Of a stretch of DNA of 64,000 bases, positions 42,993 to 50,966 are shown piece by piece; positions within the stretch are counted from its first letter, which is position 1, and the number at the start of each line of letters is the position of its first letter. The position numbers and the translations under genes were made by a program. Origin of the DNA: Halomonas organivorans (GTDB lineage Bacteria > Pseudomonadota > Gammaproteobacteria > Pseudomonadales > Halomonadaceae). The stretch is from contig NZ_JACHXM010000007.1 of assembly GCF_014192055.1 (NCBI RefSeq), forward strand, positions 62,001 to 126,000, read 5' to 3'. Below the pieces are notes generated by a model, which made no database searches, had not been told where the DNA came from, and saw nothing but the letters and a program-made list of their open reading frames with translations.

Positions 42993-44927
42993 TCAGGGAA
43001 CCAGGCCGTCGTCCGGCGCCGCGGACTCACGATCCAGACACGCCTCCAGCAGCTGGTGGATGGCCTCGGCCTCCAGGGTCTCGCGCTCGGCCAGCGCCTC
43101 GGCCAGGCGTTCGAGCGACGGGCGATGGCGTTCGAGCAGCTCGCGGCCCCGCGCCTCGACCTCACCGAGCAGGCGCCGAATCTCCGCATCCACCAGGCTG
43201 GCGGTCTCCTCGCTGTGCTCGCGGGCCTGGGCCATCTCCTTGCCGAGGAAGACGTGCTCCCGACTCTGGGCGAACACCACCGGACCGACCCGCTCGCTCA
43301 TGCCCCAGTTGGCCACCATCCGCCGCGCCAGACGGGTGGCCTGCTCGAGATCGTCCTGGGCCCCGCTGCTGACCTCGCCGAAGACGATGGCCTCGGCCAG
43401 GCGACCGCCGTACATCACGGTGAGGCGATCGCGCAGGTAGGCCTCGCCAAAGGTGAAGCGATCCTCGGCCGGCATCTGGGCGGTCACGCCCAGGGCCTGG
43501 CCCCGCGGCAGCACGGTCACCTTCTCCAGCGGGTCGGCATGGGGCAGCAGGTAGGCGAGCAGCGCGTGTCCCGCCTCGTGATAGGCGACCCGGCGCCGCT
43601 CCGCCGCGGAGAGGGCGACGTCCTTGGCCTCGCCCATCAGCACCCGATCGCGGGCCTCCGACACGCAGGACCAATCGACGATCGACTGGCCGCGGCGCCC
43701 CGCCAGCAGCGCCGCCTCGTTGGCCAGGTTGGCGAGATCGGCGCCGGAAAAGCCGGTGGTGATGGCCGCCAGCCGCGCCAGGTCGACATCGTCGCCCAGC
43801 GGCATGTCTCGGGTATGCACCGCGAGAATCGCCTCGCGGGCCTGGCGATGGGGCAATTCCATCACGATCTTGCGATCGAAGCGTCCCGGCCGCAGCAGGG
43901 CCGGATCCAGCACGTCGGGCCGGTTGGTGGCCGACAGCACCACCACCGCATGATGCGGCTCGAAGCCATCCATCTCGGAGAGGATCTGGTTCAGGGTCTG
44001 CTCGCGCTCGTCGTGCCCACCGCCCATGCCGGTGCCGCGCGCCCGGCCGATGGAATCCAGCTCGTCGATGAAGATCACCGAGGGCGCCTGGTCCTTGGCC
44101 TGCTTGAACAGGTCGCGCACCCGTGCAGCCCCCACGCCCACGAACATCTCGATGAACTCCGAGCCGCCGATGTTGAAGAAGGGCACCCCGGCCTCACCCG
44201 CGACCGCCCGGGCCAGCAGCGTCTTGCCGGTCCCCGGTGGCCCCATCATCAGGATGCCGTGCGGCACCTTGGCGCCCAGGGCCCGATAGCGATCGGGCCG
44301 CTTGAGAAACTCGACCACCTCCATGACATCGCGCTTGGCATTCTCGGAGCCGGCGACATCCTCCATGCGCACCCCGCTCTCCTCGGCGCGAATCTGGCGG
44401 GCCCGGGACTGGCCGAGGCCGAAGGGGCCGCCCCCCGACATCAGGCGCTGCTGCATGCGATTCCAGAACCAGAACAGGAAGCCGAGCAGCAGGATCCAGG
44501 GCACCACCAGCATCAGCATGCGCTGCCACCAGGGCGGCTCCTCCGGGCGCGCGACGATCGCCACCCCCTGGGCCTGCAGGCGGTCGAGCAACGCACGGCC
44601 CTCCAGGGTCGGGCGAGTGGTCTGGAAGCCCTCCCCGGCGGCCAGGCCGCGCGCGGCGCTTGCCTGGTCGGTGAAGGTGCCGGTCACCGACTGGCCGCGC
44701 AGGGTGACCGTCGCGACCCGCCCCTGATCCACCTCATCGAGGAACTCGGAGTAGTTGAGCTCGACGCGATCCGGCTGCTGCGATGTCTCGACCAGATTGA
44801 CGACCACCAGCACCACGATGGCCATCCACAGGAACGTCAGCCACTGTGGCGGCGTGCGCGGACCTCGCCCGTTACCATTGGGCGGGCGGTCGCTATCGGG
44901 AGCCTGGTTGCGGTCCGCTTTCGCCAT
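42993..44927 (-). CDS. FtsH/Yme1-type ATP-dependent zinc metalloprotease (second type)
   Basis: A 644-residue membrane AAA+ protease. Membrane segments at about 29-47 and 138-154 flank a periplasmic domain. Walker A GPPGTGKT (229-236), Walker B IFIDELD (285-291), arginine finger [10 protein letters not shown], and the zinc site HEAGH at 450-454, with [10 protein letters not shown] near the third ligand end. It has an N-terminal [17 protein letters not shown] tail not in E. coli FtsH and no rlmE/folP neighbours, so it is probably not the essential ftsH. GAGG precedes the ATG. Likely an extra quality-control protease. Confidence 0.88.
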
Positions 44928-45018: not shown

Positions 45019-48000
45019 TCATATCCGCGATCCCGGCACGCCACTGACGCGCCGCAGCGTCGCCATCAGCTGCTCTGGCGACTGGGGGCGACCCAGCAGG
45101 AACCCCTGAAGCTCGTCGCAGCCGCGTTCCGCGAGGAAGCGCCGCTGGCGTTCGGTCTCGACACCCTCGGCCAGCACCCGGAACCCCAGGTTGTGCGCCA
45201 TGTTGATGATGGCCGCGAGCAGGATCTCGTCATCGGCGTCGCCGGGCACATCGGCCAGGAAACTGCGATCGATCTTGAGCAGCTCGATCGGCAGGCGCTT
45301 GAGATACGCCAGCGACGAGTAGCCGGTCCCGAAATCGTCGATGGCCAGGCCCACCCCCATGGCGCGGATCTGATGGAGCACCGGCAGCACCCGATCGATG
45401 TTGTCCATCACATGCGTCTCGGTCAGCTCCAGCTCCAGCATGCGCGGCGAAAGCCCGGCCTGGCGGATCGCCGCATGGATGTCCCGGATCAGGTCATCGG
45501 CGTGCAGCTGTCGCGGCGACAGGTTGACCGACACCGGGATCGCGCACCCCGCCTCGGCCCAGGCGGCGGCCTGCCGGCAGGCCTCGCCGAGCACGAAGCG
45601 ACCGAGTTCGACGATCAGCCCGGAGTGCTCGGCCAGGGGAATGAAGGTGCTCGGCGGAACCAGGCCGCGCGTCGGACTCTGCCAGCGCAGCAGCGCCTCG
45701 GCGCCCACCACTCGATCGCCGGAGATGTCGAAGCGGGGCTGGAAGCACACGAACAGCTCGTCACCGGCGGCCAGGGCGTGGTGCAGTCCCGCCTCCATGC
45801 GCAGGCGGACCTGGTGACGCTCGTCGATGGCCGGCTCGAACACCATCGCTCGCTGCCGGCCCTGGGCCTTGGCCTCGTACATGGCCTGGTCGGCGTAGCG
45901 GATCAGCATCTCCGCGGACGCCTCCTGCGAGGGGGCCAGGGCGATACCCAGGCTGGCGGAGGAGAAGCAGCGGGCCACGCCCAGCTCATAGGGTTCGCTG
46001 AGTGCGTCGAGGATGCGCTGGGCAATGGCCATGGCCGGCGCCTCCTGGCCGACGCCCTGCAGCAGTACGGCGAATCCGTCACCGCCGAAGCGCGCCACGG
46101 TGTCGCGCGCCTGGGTACAGGTGCGCAGGCGATCCGCCACCTGGCGCAACAGCTCGTCACCCAGCGGATGACCATAGCGGTCGTTGATGTCCTTGAATCG
46201 GTCCAGGTCGATGAACAGTACCGACAGCGACGCTTCTCCCTGCAACGCCTCGTCGAGGCGCAGCGTGAACAGGCTGCGATTGGCCAACCCGGTCAGGCTG
46301 TCGTACCAGGCCAGCCGCTCCAGGCGCTGCTCGACGACTTTCAACGAGGAGATATCGCTGAACAGCAGCATGTGCCGCCGGCATTCATCCTCCGACGGCA
46401 GCGAGGCGGCCGAGACCAGCACCGGCAGCCTTTCGCCCTCCCCCGTCATGAACTCGCATTGGCCCTGCCAGCGCCGCTCGTCTGCCAGGGCCCGGGCCAC
46501 CTCGGGATGATGCAGCAGGAAATCGCGTATCACGCCGGTGGCATGCGCGGCCGGCCGAGCGCTCATCTCTGCAAAGGCCCGGTTGGTCAGCAGCGCGCGG
46601 TGGCGCGCGTCGAGCACGATGATCGCCTCGGCGGTCTCGGCGAACACCTGCTGGGCGAGCTGCAGCTGTTCCTGGGTCTGGCGCAGGTCGGTGACGTCGG
46701 TCGCCACCCCGCCGATCAGGTAGGCCTCCCCGCGATCGTCGAGAATCGGAAACTTGGTGACCAGGTAGTGACGCGTCCCGTCGGGGGTCGGCAGGCTGGC
46801 GTGGTACTGGACCGGTTCGCCATTCTCGATCAGATGCCGGTCGGTGCGCGTGGCCTGCGCCGCCACCGTCTCGTCCAGCCGATCGGTCACGCGGGTGCCG
46901 ACGAGGGCCGAGGGCGTCCCATGTACCGCCCAGGCATAGCGGTCGTTGACCAGCCGATAGCGATCCTGCCGGTCCTTGACGAAGATCAGGTCCGGGGCAT
47001 GCTGGATGATGCCGTCCAGGTACTTGTCGCGCTCCCGAATGCGCTGCAGCATGGTCTCGAAGGCCCGTCCCACGCGGTTGAACTCCTGGAAACGCCCGCC
47101 ACGAAACGGCTTCGCCGTGCCGCTCTCGGGCACCGCCTCGGCGTAGCGCACCAGGTCGTCCAGGGAACGAGCGGCCAGACGCCGCAGGAGCACCATGGCC
47201 CCTACCCCGACCACCACCACCAGCAATGCGGCGTACATCAGGCTGTCGAGGTAGGTATCGCGCAGCGCCAGGAAATCGTCATCGGGCAATAGCAGGGCAG
47301 CCCGGTAGGTGTCGCTGTCACCGATCTGCAGGGAATAGCCGTGCAGGATGCCCTCGGGCATGAAGGTGATCGGATCGTCGCGGTCGACGAGTGCCGCGGG
47401 CGTCACGGCCACCTCAGCGGCCAGGCGCGCATCGACGGGCCGACCATCGACACCCAGGGCGACGGCCCGAGCAGCGAACAGTCCCTGCAACTCATGGGTG
47501 AGCCAGAAGCCGTCGTCGAGGACCACGAAGGCGTGCAAACGGCCGACCACCCGTCCCAGGGAAGGCTCGACGATCGGCAGGATCAAGCGCAGCAGGCTGT
47601 AAGGTTCACCCTGCCAGCGGGTATTCAGGGTGGTCCAGCGTTCCAGGGGCGCCGGCATCCTGCTCAGCGCGTCCAGCGGCAGCGACGGAACCAGCAAGCT
47701 GGCGCTGACGACACGATGGCGCTGGTCGTCGCGTTCCACTACCAGGGCATCGATGTGCGAGGCCTGACCGTCATCCAGCAGCCCCTCGAGCACGCCATCC
47801 ACCCGTTGCGGCGAGCCCTCGCTCAACGCCGACACCAGTTCGGCCCGCTCGGCGATACCCTGGCTGTATCGCCGTATGCCCGCAAAGCGGGTCGCAACGA
47901 CTCGCTCCAGGATGCGCCGATACTGGGCATGATCCTGTTGCGTTCGTTCCAGCAGCGCCTGGCGAGATCCCAGGTAGGCGGTAGACAACAGGGTCACGGC

Positions 48001-48063
48001 CACCACGGCCAGCAACACCAGCAGCAGTGCCAGCATCAGCCGCGAGAAGCGCCAGGCCCGCAC
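45019..48063 (-). CDS. Membrane receptor with PAS-GGDEF-EAL domains (c-di-GMP phosphodiesterase candidate)
   Basis: A 1014-residue protein. TM1 at 9-31, a periplasmic sensor region 32-272, TM2 at 273-293, a HAMP-like linker to 340, PAS 1 (350-460) and PAS 2 (470-575), GGDEF (582-740) and EAL (755-1005). The GGDEF motif reads GGDGF (660-664), so cyclase activity is doubtful. The EAL domain keeps EALLRW, NLSPRQL, ELTETHV, IDDFGTGYSSL, LKIDRSFL and AEGVET, so phosphodiesterase activity is expected. GTG start one base past the upstream gene stop (TGACGTG), with GGGGAG 10 bases before it; the pair is translationally coupled. Confidence 0.9.
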   Translation of the reverse strand: MRAWRFSRLMLALLLVLLAVVAVTLLSTAYLGSRQALLERTQQDHAQYRRILERVVATRFAGIRRYSQGIAERAELVSALSEGSPQRVDGVLEGLLDDGQASHIDALVVERDDQRHRVVSASLLVPSLPLDALSRMPAPLERWTTLNTRWQGEPYSLLRLILPIVEPSLGRVVGRLHAFVVLDDGFWLTHELQGLFAARAVALGVDGRPVDARLAAEVAVTPAALVDRDDPITFMPEGILHGYSLQIGDSDTYRAALLLPDDDFLALRDTYLDSLMYAALLVVVVGVGAMVLLRRLAARSLDDLVRYAEAVPESGTAKPFRGGRFQEFNRVGRAFETMLQRIRERDKYLDGIIQHAPDLIFVKDRQDRYRLVNDRYAWAVHGTPSALVGTRVTDRLDETVAAQATRTDRHLIENGEPVQYHASLPTPDGTRHYLVTKFPILDDRGEAYLIGGVATDVTDLRQTQEQLQLAQQVFAETAEAIIVLDARHRALLTNRAFAEMSARPAAHATGVIRDFLLHHPEVARALADERRWQGQCEFMTGEGERLPVLVSAASLPSEDECRRHMLLFSDISSLKVVEQRLERLAWYDSLTGLANRSLFTLRLDEALQGEASLSVLFIDLDRFKDINDRYGHPLGDELLRQVADRLRTCTQARDTVARFGGDGFAVLLQGVGQEAPAMAIAQRILDALSEPYELGVARCFSSASLGIALAPSQEASAEMLIRYADQAMYEAKAQGRQRAMVFEPAIDERHQVRLRMEAGLHHALAAGDELFVCFQPRFDISGDRVVGAEALLRWQSPTRGLVPPSTFIPLAEHSGLIVELGRFVLGEACRQAAAWAEAGCAIPVSVNLSPRQLHADDLIRDIHAAIRQAGLSPRMLELELTETHVMDNIDRVLPVLHQIRAMGVGLAIDDFGTGYSSLAYLKRLPIELLKIDRSFLADVPGDADDEILLAAIINMAHNLGFRVLAEGVETERQRRFLAERGCDELQGFLLGRPQSPEQLMATLRRVSGVPGSRI

Positions 48064-48064
48064 G

Positions 48065-49195
48065 TCAGTCTGTCTCCCCGTCGCCGCTCAACCGAAAGGC
48101 CCGGCGCTCGAGACGCTCGATCTCCTCGGGCGGCGTATCCCGGGTGATCAAGGCAATGTCGCCGGCGAAGATATCCGGGACTCGCGTCGCCTGCCCGATC
48201 AGCGCCATGCGGATCGCCTCGGCCATGGCAATGCCGTTCTCGTCGTTGATGCGCATGGCGGTCACATCCAGGCCGCCATCTTGCAGGGCTTCGAGCTCCG
48301 ACGCCCCGCCGCCCCAACCGTTGAGCAGCACGTCCATGCGATCGGTCTCGCGCAGCGCCCGCAGGGCGCCCAGTGCCACATCGGTGGAGCTGGCGAAGAT
48401 CATCTTCAGATCGGGGTGTTCCTGCAGGGTCTTCAGCGTCGCTCGGTAGGCCTTGTCCGGATCCCCGTCGGTGTAATAGGCATCCACCTCCTCCACCTTC
48501 GGATAGCGAGCGGCCTCGTCGGCAAAGGTGCCGCCACGCATGCGGCTGACATAGCCGGGAGAGAAGTACAGCATCAGGTACTTGCCCCGATGTCCGGCCC
48601 GTTCGAGCATCCAGTCGGCGATCAAACGGGTGCCCTGCACATGGTCGAAGCCGACGTACATGAAGGGAGGATCGGCTTCCCAGTCGATCAGCGGAGTGGT
48701 GATGTTCTGCAGGATCAGCCGCGGACTGCCCAGCGCCAGGACCCGCTCGATCATGCGCAGGTGGGGCACCGCGTTCAGGGTGAACACCAGGTAGTCCGGC
48801 CGCCACTGCAGTGCCGTGGTCAGCTGCCGCGCCTGCAGGTCGACGTCCACCGACGGTCGGGACATGAACGTCTTGAGATCGTAGGGGATACGCAGCTGTT
48901 CTAGTCGCGCCTCGAAGGAAGACAGGCTGCGTCGCCAGTAGTCCGAGGACTGCAGGCCGGGGTAGATGACCGCGATGCGCAGCGTGCGCCGCGGCGATGC
49001 AGACAGCGGCATGGCCGGCGACTGGACGCGGGTGGAAAAATCCGCCATCAGCGCCTGCTGCTCGGGATGCCGCGCAAGATAGTCGTCGATGGGCACATAA
49101 TGACTCGTCGCCCTGGCGGCCTCCCCCGGCAGGGCGCCCATCAGGATGGCGGCCGTCAGCACGGCGCACCGGAAAAGCGCTGGGCATCCAGCCAT
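48065..49195 (-). CDS. LuxP-like periplasmic binding protein
   Basis: A 376-residue exported solute-binding protein of the periplasmic sugar-binding/LuxP type. Signal peptide 1-25 (cut near GEAARA). Two-lobed fold with RIAVIYPGLQSSDYWRRSLSSFEARLEQL, YLVFTLNAVPHLRMIERVLALGSP, YVGFDHVQGTRLIADWMLERAGHRGKYLML and FASSTDVALGALRALRETDR. LuxP binds AI-2 and controls LuxQ. Coupled here to the GGDEF-EAL receptor downstream instead of a kinase. The ATG at 49195 follows GGAAGGA. The ligand is not known: sugar, AI-2 or other. Confidence 0.82.
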   Translation of the reverse strand: MAGCPALFRCAVLTAAILMGALPGEAARATSHYVPIDDYLARHPEQQALMADFSTRVQSPAMPLSASPRRTLRIAVIYPGLQSSDYWRRSLSSFEARLEQLRIPYDLKTFMSRPSVDVDLQARQLTTALQWRPDYLVFTLNAVPHLRMIERVLALGSPRLILQNITTPLIDWEADPPFMYVGFDHVQGTRLIADWMLERAGHRGKYLMLYFSPGYVSRMRGGTFADEAARYPKVEEVDAYYTDGDPDKAYRATLKTLQEHPDLKMIFASSTDVALGALRALRETDRMDVLLNGWGGGASELEALQDGGLDVTAMRINDENGIAMAEAIRMALIGQATRVPDIFAGDIALITRDTPPEEIERLERRAFRLSGDGETD

Positions 49196-49389
49196 CGAAT
49201 GGTCCTTCCGTCTCGGGTCTCCTTCACCACGGTTATCCCGATGGTGCCAGGCGACCACTGTACCGCATGCCCCCGACGGATGCCGATGCGCTCGGCGATG
49301 ACGACACCCCCGCCCGAGAGAGTGGCCTGAGAAGTACCAGTAGTTAAGTTAAAACGAATGAAAAACGCAACGTTGGATCTCGGCGGGCC

Positions 49390-50007
49390 TCAGGCCAGTT
49401 CGCCCAGCCCGCTCCCGGCCAGCTGCAGCGCGATACCGCCCATCATCATGCCGATGGCGCCGTCGATCAGCCGCCAGGCCCGCGGTCGCGAGAGCCACGG
49501 CGAGAGCAGTGCCCCGCCCCAGGCCAGCAGACTGAACCACAGCACGGAGGCGCTGCCGGCTCCGGCCACGAAGGCCACGGCACTGTCCTGCTGGGCACCG
49601 ACCGAGGGAATCAGCAGCAGGGTATCGAGATAGACCTGCGGATTGAGCACGGTGACCGCCAGGGTGGCCAGCAGCACCCGGGTGACGCTGTGCTCTCCGT
49701 CGGCGGAGCCCGCCAGCCCCTGGCGGCCGACGCTGGCCCGGTACAGCGCCTGGGCGGCCAGCCAGCCGAGGAAAGCCACCCCCAGCCAGCGCAGCACATC
49801 GAGCGCCCCGGGGATCGTCAGCAGCACCGCACTCATGCCGAACATGCCCGCCGCCACCAGCAGCAGATCGCTACCCATGCATAGCCCGGCGGACCACCAG
49901 TGATGCTGACGGCGAACGGCGAGCCCCAGCACGTAGGCGTTCTGGGCGCCGATGGCGACGATGATGCCGCCGCTTACCAACAGCCCGGTCAGATAACTCT
50001 CCAGCAT
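49390..50007 (-). CDS. argO: LysE/ArgO-family amino acid exporter
   Basis: A 205-residue membrane protein with six hydrophobic segments. It shows GGIIVAIGAQNAYVLGLAVRRQH, the FLGWLAAQALYRA segment and TVLNPQVYLDTLLLIPSVGAQQ, matching ArgO/LysE. ArgO exports arginine (and lysine/canavanine). Diverges from ArgP, its known activator partner. Two ATGs lie close; the second (50007) follows GGGAGG at 7 bases and is chosen. Confidence 0.9.
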   Translation of the reverse strand: MLESYLTGLLVSGGIIVAIGAQNAYVLGLAVRRQHHWWSAGLCMGSDLLLVAAGMFGMSAVLLTIPGALDVLRWLGVAFLGWLAAQALYRASVGRQGLAGSADGEHSVTRVLLATLAVTVLNPQVYLDTLLLIPSVGAQQDSAVAFVAGAGSASVLWFSLLAWGGALLSPWLSRPRAWRLIDGAIGMMMGGIALQLAGSGLGELA

Positions 50008-50096
50008 CGACATGCCTCCCTGAAATGAGGAGGCCAGCCTAGCGCCACGACGATATACTGAAAAATCATCTTCCTAATGCTGTATCAGTTTTTCTT

Positions 50097-50966
50097 ATGA
50101 TCGATTACAAGCTGCTCGAGGCCCTCGCCACGGTCATCGAATGCAACGGTTTCGAGCGTGCCGGCGAAGCGCTCGGCCTCTCGCAGTCGGCCGTCTCCCA
50201 GCGCCTCAAGACCCTGGAAGTGCGCCTCGGCCAGCCGGTACTGATTCGCCATCCACACCTTGAGCCCACGCCCGCGGGACGGCGGTTGCTCAACCACTAT
50301 CAGCAGGTCCAACTGCTGGAACGCGACCTGCGCAGCGCCCTGCCGACCCTGGAGACCGCCTCGCCGCGGCTGCGCATCGCCATCAACGCCGACAGCCTTG
50401 CCACCTGGTGGGCCGACGCCGTGGGGCGCTTCTGTCGCGATGAAGGGCTGCTGCTCGACCTGGTCATCGAGGACCAGGACGTGGGCCTTCGACGACTGCG
50501 CGACGGCGAGGTGGCGGCCTGCCTGTGCGCCAGCGACCAGCCCATCGCCGGGGCGCGCTGTGTCCCGCTGGGCACCATGGTCTACCACCCCTATGCCACC
50601 CCGGCCTACATCGCCCGATATTTTCCCCAGGGGCCCAGCGAGGCGGCCTTTCGCCATGCCCCGGCGATCGTCTATGGCCCCCACGACCAGCTGCAACATC
50701 GGTTCCTGGCTCAATGCGGCTACCACGGCGCCTTTCCCTACCACCTGTGCCCCTCATCGGAGGGATTCGTGCGACTCGCCGCCGCCGGCATCGGCTACGG
50801 CATGATGCCGCATCGCCAGGTGGCCGACCTGGTGAAGGCTGGCCAGCTCGCCAGTCTTGATCCACAGCGCCGCCTGGAGGTGCCGCTGTACTGGCATTTC
50901 TGGCGCCACAGCGGCGCCCTGCTCGAGCGACTGACGGGCATGCTGGGCGAGGTGCAACTAACCTGA
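50097..50966 (+). CDS. argP: LysR-type regulator ArgP (IciA)
   Basis: A 289-residue LysR protein matching ArgP: DYKLLEALATVIECNGFERAGEALGLSQSAVSQRLKTLE in the winged helix, RIAINADSLATWWADAV, the FVRLAAAGIGYGMMPH end and YWHFWRHSGALLERLTG. ArgP binds arginine or lysine and controls argO. No ribosome site stands out in the AT-rich leader. The 89-base gap between argO and argP contains both promoters (TATACT-type at 50054-50059). Confidence 0.9.
   Translation: MIDYKLLEALATVIECNGFERAGEALGLSQSAVSQRLKTLEVRLGQPVLIRHPHLEPTPAGRRLLNHYQQVQLLERDLRSALPTLETASPRLRIAINADSLATWWADAVGRFCRDEGLLLDLVIEDQDVGLRRLRDGEVAACLCASDQPIAGARCVPLGTMVYHPYATPAYIARYFPQGPSEAAFRHAPAIVYGPHDQLQHRFLAQCGYHGAFPYHLCPSSEGFVRLAAAGIGYGMMPHRQVADLVKAGQLASLDPQRRLEVPLYWHFWRHSGALLERLTGMLGEVQLT

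Follow-up and report, generated by a model that had tools for sequence, protein, structure and literature searches.

In Vibrio, the route from the quorum signal autoinducer-2 (AI-2) to cyclic diguanosine monophosphate (c-di-GMP) leads via LuxQ, a phosphorelay and gene regulation (PMC11796354; here and below, papers are cited for the portions of their text that were available). The LuxPQ system of V. harveyi and V. cholerae is also the described system with which the locus treated here is mainly compared, namely a luxP-like gene and an adjoining receptor gene in a 64,000-nucleotide stretch of the Halomonas organivorans genome (the whole stretch is hereafter called the window). The two systems share a LuxP homologue with an AI-2 pocket, a LuxQ double-Cache domain and the gene order luxP then receptor, whereas the output in the window is PAS-PAS-GGDEF-EAL and that of LuxQ a histidine kinase with a receiver. 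We consider it probable, at roughly three chances in four, that the window encodes a LuxPQ-type AI-2 receptor whose kinase output has been swapped for PAS-PAS-GGDEF-EAL, so that AI-2 would directly control c-di-GMP hydrolysis, a reading that rests on comparison of sequences and predicted structures.

Several other systems resemble parts of this arrangement. NspS of V. cholerae is a PotD-like binding protein. In the NspS-MbaA system, a separate periplasmic binding protein is described as controlling an inner-membrane GGDEF-EAL protein (PMC8967002), as is proposed here for the window, but the binding protein belongs to another family, the ligand is a polyamine, and MbaA is reported to be bifunctional (PMC8967002), whereas the window GGDEF domain lacks its Glu. 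RpfR, a phosphodiesterase that senses Burkholderia diffusible signal factor (BDSF), likewise places a c-di-GMP phosphodiesterase under direct control of a quorum signal (PMC8846402), although the signal is bound by RpfR's own PAS domain, without a periplasmic binding protein. Additionally, rpHK1S-Z16, with a dCACHE domain, and YeaJ, with a GAPES1 domain, are membrane AI-2 receptors that change c-di-GMP (PMC7584622, PMC12268683); in both, however, the receptor binds AI-2 directly, the output driven is a diguanylate cyclase, and no LuxP takes part.

The pair itself has been glimpsed before. Rezzonico and Duffy reported in 2008 that a luxP-like gene of Neptuniibacter caesariensis MED92, which has no luxS, lies in an operon with a PAS protein (PMC2561040); this is presumably our locus L072, which comes from the same strain (locus tags not compared). 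The LuxP partner is called a presumed PAS transcriptional regulator and a different sensor kinase in the available text of that paper, in which neither EAL nor diguanylate appears as a word, and it was proposed there that such bacteria may sense AI-2 made by others. A table of Cache domains from 2016 has a LuxQ-periplasm row of "115, 112, -, 1" (PMC4822843), which we read, from column heads only partly shown, as 112 kinases and one c-di-GMP protein among 115. A later study counted 267 LuxP proteins and treated LuxP as serving transport (PMC12268683), and LuxQ is not mentioned in the available passages of a 2022 census of c-di-GMP sensing (PMC8846402). No description of LuxP coupled to a GGDEF-EAL protein was found in the titles, abstract starts and passages of the open-licence PubMed Central literature, outside which most subscription papers lie. 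An earlier reading of the window, made from its sequence only, had inferred the coupling from the order of genes and domains; a binding protein feeding a GGDEF-EAL protein has a studied precedent in NspS-MbaA (PMC8967002), and the pair was partly seen in 2008 (PMC2561040).

The LuxP homologue and the periplasmic domain of its receptor

The features of the locus are as follows.

48065..49195, minus strand: luxP-like gene, 376 amino acids, ATG at 49195 to TGA at 48065
45019..48063, minus strand: receptor gene, 1014 amino acids, GTG start at 48063 and stop at 45019; order of parts: transmembrane helix, LuxQ-periplasm, transmembrane helix, PAS, PAS, GGDEF (GGDGF), EAL
47236..47979, minus strand: periplasmic domain, LuxQ-type double Cache, residues 29-276 (Pfam, AlphaFold and structure matches)
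46678..47001, minus strand: PAS domain 1, residues 355-462 (Pfam PAS_4, best of two stretches; E 2.5e-22 for the whole protein)
46339..46653, minus strand: PAS domain 2, roughly residues 471-575 (second Pfam PAS stretch; boundaries estimated from the corresponding stretches of relatives)
45850..46311, minus strand: GGDEF domain, residues 585-738 (Pfam E 1.1e-46)
46072-46086, minus strand: GGDGF motif, residues 660-664
45085..45783, minus strand: EAL domain, predicted c-di-GMP phosphodiesterase, residues 761-993 (Pfam E 1.3e-72)

The luxP-like gene encodes a periplasmic binding protein of type I. Its apparent N-terminal signal peptide was assigned by eye, as were the transmembrane helices of the receptor. 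In phmmer searches the binding protein matched four LuxP sequences of V. harveyi with E values near 1e-92 (1zhh_A, E 3.4e-92 over residues 33-370), whereas the best ribose-binding protein reached only E 1.3e-14, about 255 bits below LuxP. Pfam assigned it to Peripla_BP_4 (E 4.5e-25) and, more weakly, only to kin of that fold, and not to the PotD-like polyamine family; its best match in the Protein Data Bank was LuxP. The residues that we take to contact AI-2 in V. harveyi LuxP are Q77, S79, W82, N159, R215, S265, T266, D267, W289 and R310, and in the alignment all ten are identical in the window protein, where they are Q82, S84, W87, N164, R220, S270, T271, D272, W294 and R315. Nine of these ten positions are invariant in all 30 LuxPs that adjoin GGDEF-EAL receptors, while the position of S270 is occupied by S in 23, A in 4 and T in 3 of them.

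The periplasmic domain of the receptor belongs with LuxQ by profile and by predicted fold. Pfam LuxQ-periplasm (PF09308) matched residues 35-220 at E 2.9e-12 (47.1 bits, cut-off 25.7), and at E 1.9e-13 when residues 30-275 were searched alone; the NCBIfam model LuxQ_Vibrio aligned to residues 6-365 at E 3.6e-23, under its curated cut-off. Only three Protein Data Bank sequences were matched by the periplasmic part in phmmer, all of them LuxQ (V. cholerae 3c30 at E 9.8e-7, V. harveyi at about 0.01). Neither dCache_1, at E up to 1, nor GAPES1 was matched by the window receptor in Pfam. An AlphaFold model of the domain, built without templates from an alignment containing 58 of the 77 available homologous periplasmic domains, reached a mean predicted local distance difference test score (pLDDT) of 91 and a predicted template-modelling score (pTM) of 0.85. 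With this model, the first six Foldseek ranks were all LuxQ chains (E 3.7e-12 to 2.2e-10), and alignment by VIA-align to five LuxQ entries gave Z scores of 20.9, 20.9, 20.1, 19.6 and 19.3 (root-mean-square deviation 2.6-2.9 over 205-216 residues), the next-best match being the extracellular domain of another sensor kinase at Z 13.8.

Re-reading of the open reading frames on the minus strand confirmed both genes of the sequence-only reading, their coordinates and their TGA-C-GTG junction with its 1-nucleotide gap; the luxP-like frame also has an alternative in-frame GTG at 49258, which would add 21 amino acids. The binding protein, first described as of LuxP or periplasmic-sugar-binding type, is borne out as a LuxP homologue with a kept AI-2 pocket, and the receptor domain supposed to take its input is identified as a LuxQ periplasmic domain. 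Of the "quorum- or sugar-sensing" function then suggested, sensing of AI-2 is favoured and sugar sensing becomes the weaker alternative.

The PAS, GGDEF and EAL domains

A histidine kinase output was sought with Pfam, and no HisKA, HATPase, receiver or phosphotransfer match was found in the receptor. In the EAL domain, twelve positions were checked (E789, A790, L791, N847, E879, E882, D909, D910, K930, E966, E969 and Q986), which we take to have catalytic and metal-binding roles; all 12 are intact in the window and identical in 30/30 LuxP-linked receptors, which argues for a phosphodiesterase as the predicted constant output of the LuxP-linked family. These positions and the Pfam domains uphold the two PAS domains and the intact EAL domain reported from the sequence alone.

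The GGDEF domain is more variable. Its Glu is kept in 29 of the 30 LuxP-linked receptors, Gly being found only in the window, and the whole motif is present in 27, two Oceanospirillum receptors (L067 and L068) having lost two motif glycines instead. The "degenerate GGDGF" noted earlier is thus present in the window but private to its genome; it is a single base change away from GGDEF and may reflect an error of the assembly, a draft of 72 contigs. Since the motif is intact in most relatives, the ancestral receptor probably had both synthase and phosphodiesterase capacity for c-di-GMP, and most LuxP-linked receptors may also be able to synthesise it. In the window, where the signature residue is lost, the GGDEF domain is probably regulatory and the net output would be c-di-GMP breakdown. 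The H. organivorans genome contains 13 EAL loci.

Distribution, phylogeny and signal supply

The pair was sought in a family sample of 201 genomes, including that of H. organivorans, with thresholds of E 1e-30 for LuxP and E 0.001 for LuxQ-periplasm. LuxP was found in 13 genomes and LuxQ-periplasm in 16, 14 of the latter above the Pfam cut-off. In 12 of the 13 LuxP-bearing genomes a LuxQ-periplasm receptor adjoins, although one of the 12, in H. getboli (G189), is under the Pfam cut-off (E 9e-4); seven of these adjacent pairs have GGDEF-EAL and five lack any output domain. In an even sample of the class, LuxQ-periplasm occurred in 2/369 genomes, one of them that of H. organivorans itself.

Among 86 LuxPs examined (the best 80 of 265 relatives in named genomes, the window, and five further non-duplicate genomes), the neighbouring gene encodes a histidine kinase in 42, GGDEF-EAL in 30 and LuxQ-periplasm-PAS-PAS only in 5; the remainder comprise one with LuxQ-periplasm only, one with a SpoIIE phosphatase, three without an adjacent receptor and four unclassed at contig ends. 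The 42 kinase labels were given from Pfam (17), from a HisKA-type motif (23) or by default as kin of scanned rows (2; L100 and L125), and the 30 GGDEF-EAL labels from similarity to the window domains together with EAL motifs, six being also backed by Pfam (the window, L034 and L089 directly; L049, L067 and L068 via L031, L042 and L041 of the same genomes). The 30 GGDEF-EAL pairs represent eight named genera, mainly Halomonas and Oceanospirillaceae-type. The phosphatase case is Desulfococcaceae bacterium HSG9 (L082:8239-10476), in which LuxP lies beside LuxQ-periplasm-PAS-SpoIIE with a serine-phosphatase output, and in Marinobacterium jannaschii (L074:8101-9048) LuxP is followed by a 315-amino-acid protein with a LuxQ-periplasm domain alone. 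Receptors of the form LuxQ-periplasm-PAS-GGDEF-EAL were also seen at L044:5435-9129 (G054) and L045:4272-7913 (G002).

In a LuxP tree built by a quick method, with seven duplicate loci left out (L031, L033, L036, L038 and L040-L042), one set of 39 rows (SH-like approximate likelihood-ratio test, SH-aLRT, 99) takes in every truncated form together with 28 of the 30 GGDEF-EAL pairs. This set comprises records of Halomonas, Onishia, Pontibacterium, Amphritea, Marinobacterium, Neptuniibacter and Oceanospirillum and a few metagenome-assembled genomes (MAGs), and Oceanisphaera and Zobellella stand apart from it. The minimum number of changes between kinase and GGDEF-EAL on the tree is 2; nevertheless, two independent fusions are not claimed, because a single GGDEF-EAL clade is not rejected by the approximately unbiased test (p-AU 0.622 for LuxP, 0.105 for EAL). 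In Amphritea balenae (L054), the EAL domain of the 908-amino-acid receptor beside LuxP does not fall into the clade of the other receptors and is joined to another long branch; this is perhaps, with uncertainty, a further output swap.

In six Onishia-type genomes, which share the genus code g12 and include H. salinarum, the receptor has 575-591 amino acids and ends directly after the second PAS domain (L036, L037, L038, L039, L040 and L043). In the three of these loci that were read (L036, L039 and L040), a YebC-like gene (by eye) lies downstream in the opposite direction. The periplasmic and PAS parts of the truncated receptors have pairwise ratios of nonsynonymous to synonymous substitution (dN/dS) of 0.09-0.32 in 15/15 genome pairs, which points to purifying selection on a receptor without output. 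In L036 and L037 the gene immediately before luxP encodes a 436-amino-acid GGDEF protein, to which N-terminal PAS and GAF domains were assigned by eye; in L043, which has no luxP, it immediately precedes the receptor gene.

Split states were also found. Marinobacterium ramblicola has kept both partners, LuxP and a receptor with LuxQ-periplasm (a 1017-amino-acid frame, output domain not checked), about 145 kb apart on one contig; H. smyrnensis (L048) and G141 (L032) have LuxP without a receptor detectable at E 0.001, and G139 (L046) and G048 (L043) a receptor without LuxP at E 1e-20. Residue G170 of the periplasmic domain is invariant in 81/81 LuxP-linked domains. G139, which has no LuxP, lacks this glycine, as do both receptors whose partner is a binding protein of another type; G048, likewise without LuxP, retains it, and the pattern is no more than suggestive. 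Loss of LuxP might relax the periplasmic domain: that of G139 has diverged, yet that of LuxP-bearing H. getboli scores equally low on PF09308.

As for the surroundings of the pair in the window, its neighbours are an argO/LysE-like gene at 49390-50013 and, on the other side, an FtsH-like gene at 42993-44927; both share the minus strand with the pair, and a LysR-type gene (50097-50966) is divergent from the argO-like gene (all by eye). L046 and L032 retain the argO-like gene (by eye) upstream. A scan of the locus for promoters and terminators found none, against chance expectations of 0.5 and 1.4.

The gene for AI-2 synthesis, luxS, is present in the H. organivorans genome and in 162/201 genomes of the family sample. 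It was found in 25 of 33 named genomes searched, and in 19 of the 27 among them with GGDEF-EAL; among the 33, luxS was not matched in either Oceanospirillum, in five of six Neptuniibacter-titled records or in one Oceanospirillaceae MAG. Several luxS-less carriers are MAGs of unstated completeness, but the record of Neptuniibacter sp. PT1 is described in its title as a complete genome. Carriers without luxS would be listeners only.

Proposed mechanism, alternatives and significance

In the mechanism that we propose, AI-2 would be bound by LuxP in the periplasm, and LuxP would dock on the LuxQ-type double-Cache domain of the receptor. AI-2-loaded LuxP would then repack the double-Cache dimer of the receptor, a change that would cross the membrane and the PAS pair to alter EAL phosphodiesterase activity without a phosphorelay. 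AI-2 binding, complex formation and phosphodiesterase activity are steps that we infer. The LuxQ domain, the kept pocket, the invariant EAL positions and the recurrence of the pair, which extends to eight named genera with adjacency in 12/13 LuxP-bearing family genomes, support computationally the earlier suggestion that the binding protein feeds c-di-GMP turnover. The presence of luxS in the H. organivorans genome and the retention of both separated genes in M. ramblicola also count in favour of the proposal. Concerning sign, our guess, at about 60:40, is that AI-2 raises phosphodiesterase activity; this is favoured because AI-2 acting via LuxPQ lowers c-di-GMP in V. cholerae (PMC11796354) and swimming of Halomonas elongata is AI-2-dependent, in a 2026 paper whose available passages do not contain the word LuxP (PMC13337758).

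Some observations weigh against this proposal. LuxP is rare, occurring in 13/201 genomes of the family and 10/90 of the genus, and set beside the 162/201 with luxS this means that most AI-2 producers in the family do without it. The pocket is about as conserved in 51 LuxPs with another neighbour, mostly kinases, where the exceptions are one T at S84 and one S at D272 and the S270 position is S in 43; moreover, the invariance of N164 and W294 was partly selected, because the patterns used to find relatives (LILQN, NGWGGG) contain both. The periplasmic domain is only 14-18% identical to solved LuxQ, and the model and the LuxQ structures are not fully independent because the alignment contained Vibrio LuxQ rows. 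The L044 and L045 receptors adjoin a tricarboxylate-type binding protein (Bug/TctC-like, by eye) and not LuxP, and the split states mean that LuxP and receptor can part.

The coupling could also run with the opposite sign, unliganded LuxP favouring the phosphodiesterase and AI-2 switching it off, as in NspS-MbaA, where ligand-bound NspS favours c-di-GMP synthesis by MbaA (PMC8967002). The AI-2 receptors rpHK1S-Z16 and YeaJ raise c-di-GMP synthesis as well (PMC7584622, PMC12268683), and the 27/30 receptors with an intact GGDEF motif could synthesise c-di-GMP; we nevertheless hold this somewhat unlikely, as the synthase half is probably dead in the window, where the Glu is lost, and the effects of AI-2 in V. 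cholerae (less c-di-GMP) and H. elongata (more swimming) point the other way, albeit via other or unknown receptors. A ligand other than AI-2, such as a sugar or some different small molecule, is unlikely for the binding protein. The general family is sugar-binding (Peripla_BP_4; ribose-binding proteins at about 1e-14) and luxS was not matched in 8/27 named GGDEF-EAL carriers, but LuxP lies about 255 bits above any ribose-binding protein, the AI-2 pocket is kept, 3/3 LuxP proteins picked at random from the 267 bound AI-2 (PMC12268683), and AI-2 from neighbours would explain the luxS-less carriers. Sugar sensing was set aside as the main interpretation on the LuxP match and the pocket.

It is quite unlikely that the neighbourhood is incidental, with no LuxP-receptor complex and a double-Cache domain that senses its ligand directly, although LuxP-less receptors exist (G139 and G048), other dCACHE receptors bind AI-2 directly (PMC7584622), and two kinase relatives, L105 and L114, match dCache_1 below its cut-off. 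The window domain is, by comparison, LuxQ-periplasm without any dCache_1 match at E up to 1, its fold is closest to that of the solved LuxP partner, adjacency recurs across many genera and several output types, and the G170 pattern, apart from its retention in G048, follows linkage to LuxP. Lastly, the GGDGF motif of the window would suit a degenerate, LapD-like effector that binds c-di-GMP and is not an enzyme; given that 12/12 EAL positions are intact in 30/30 receptors and that NCBIfam scores for the EAL phosphodiesterases DibA and PRK10060 were 494 and 404 bits against 162 for LapD, all under their own cut-offs, this is most improbable and was set aside.

Returning to direct control of c-di-GMP breakdown by AI-2, a LuxPQ front end would, if the proposal is true, act on the second messenger directly, which should be fast, and crowding could govern biofilm life in a single step. 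The locus would provide a candidate AI-2 receptor for some Halomonas, a genus in which AI-2 effects are now reported, and would tie LuxP-type sensing of AI-2 to c-di-GMP enzymes in bacteria other than Vibrio; the luxS-less Oceanospirillum and Neptuniibacter make a case for AI-2 eavesdropping. More tentatively, and with somewhat less than even confidence in the statement as a whole, LuxP and the LuxQ periplasmic domain may be regarded not as a Vibrio kinase system but as an exchangeable AI-2 input module whose output, according to lineage, is a kinase, a hybrid kinase, a SpoIIE phosphatase or c-di-GMP turnover. In Halomonas and Oceanospirillaceae it would form a one-step AI-2-controlled phosphodiesterase, serving AI-2 producers as well as luxS-less eavesdroppers, while Onishia-type bacteria, having shed the enzyme, would still maintain LuxP and the sensor by purifying selection, perhaps as a regulator that acts in trans. 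The LuxP-linked family would also offer a natural set of output swaps and losses on binding-protein signalling across the membrane.

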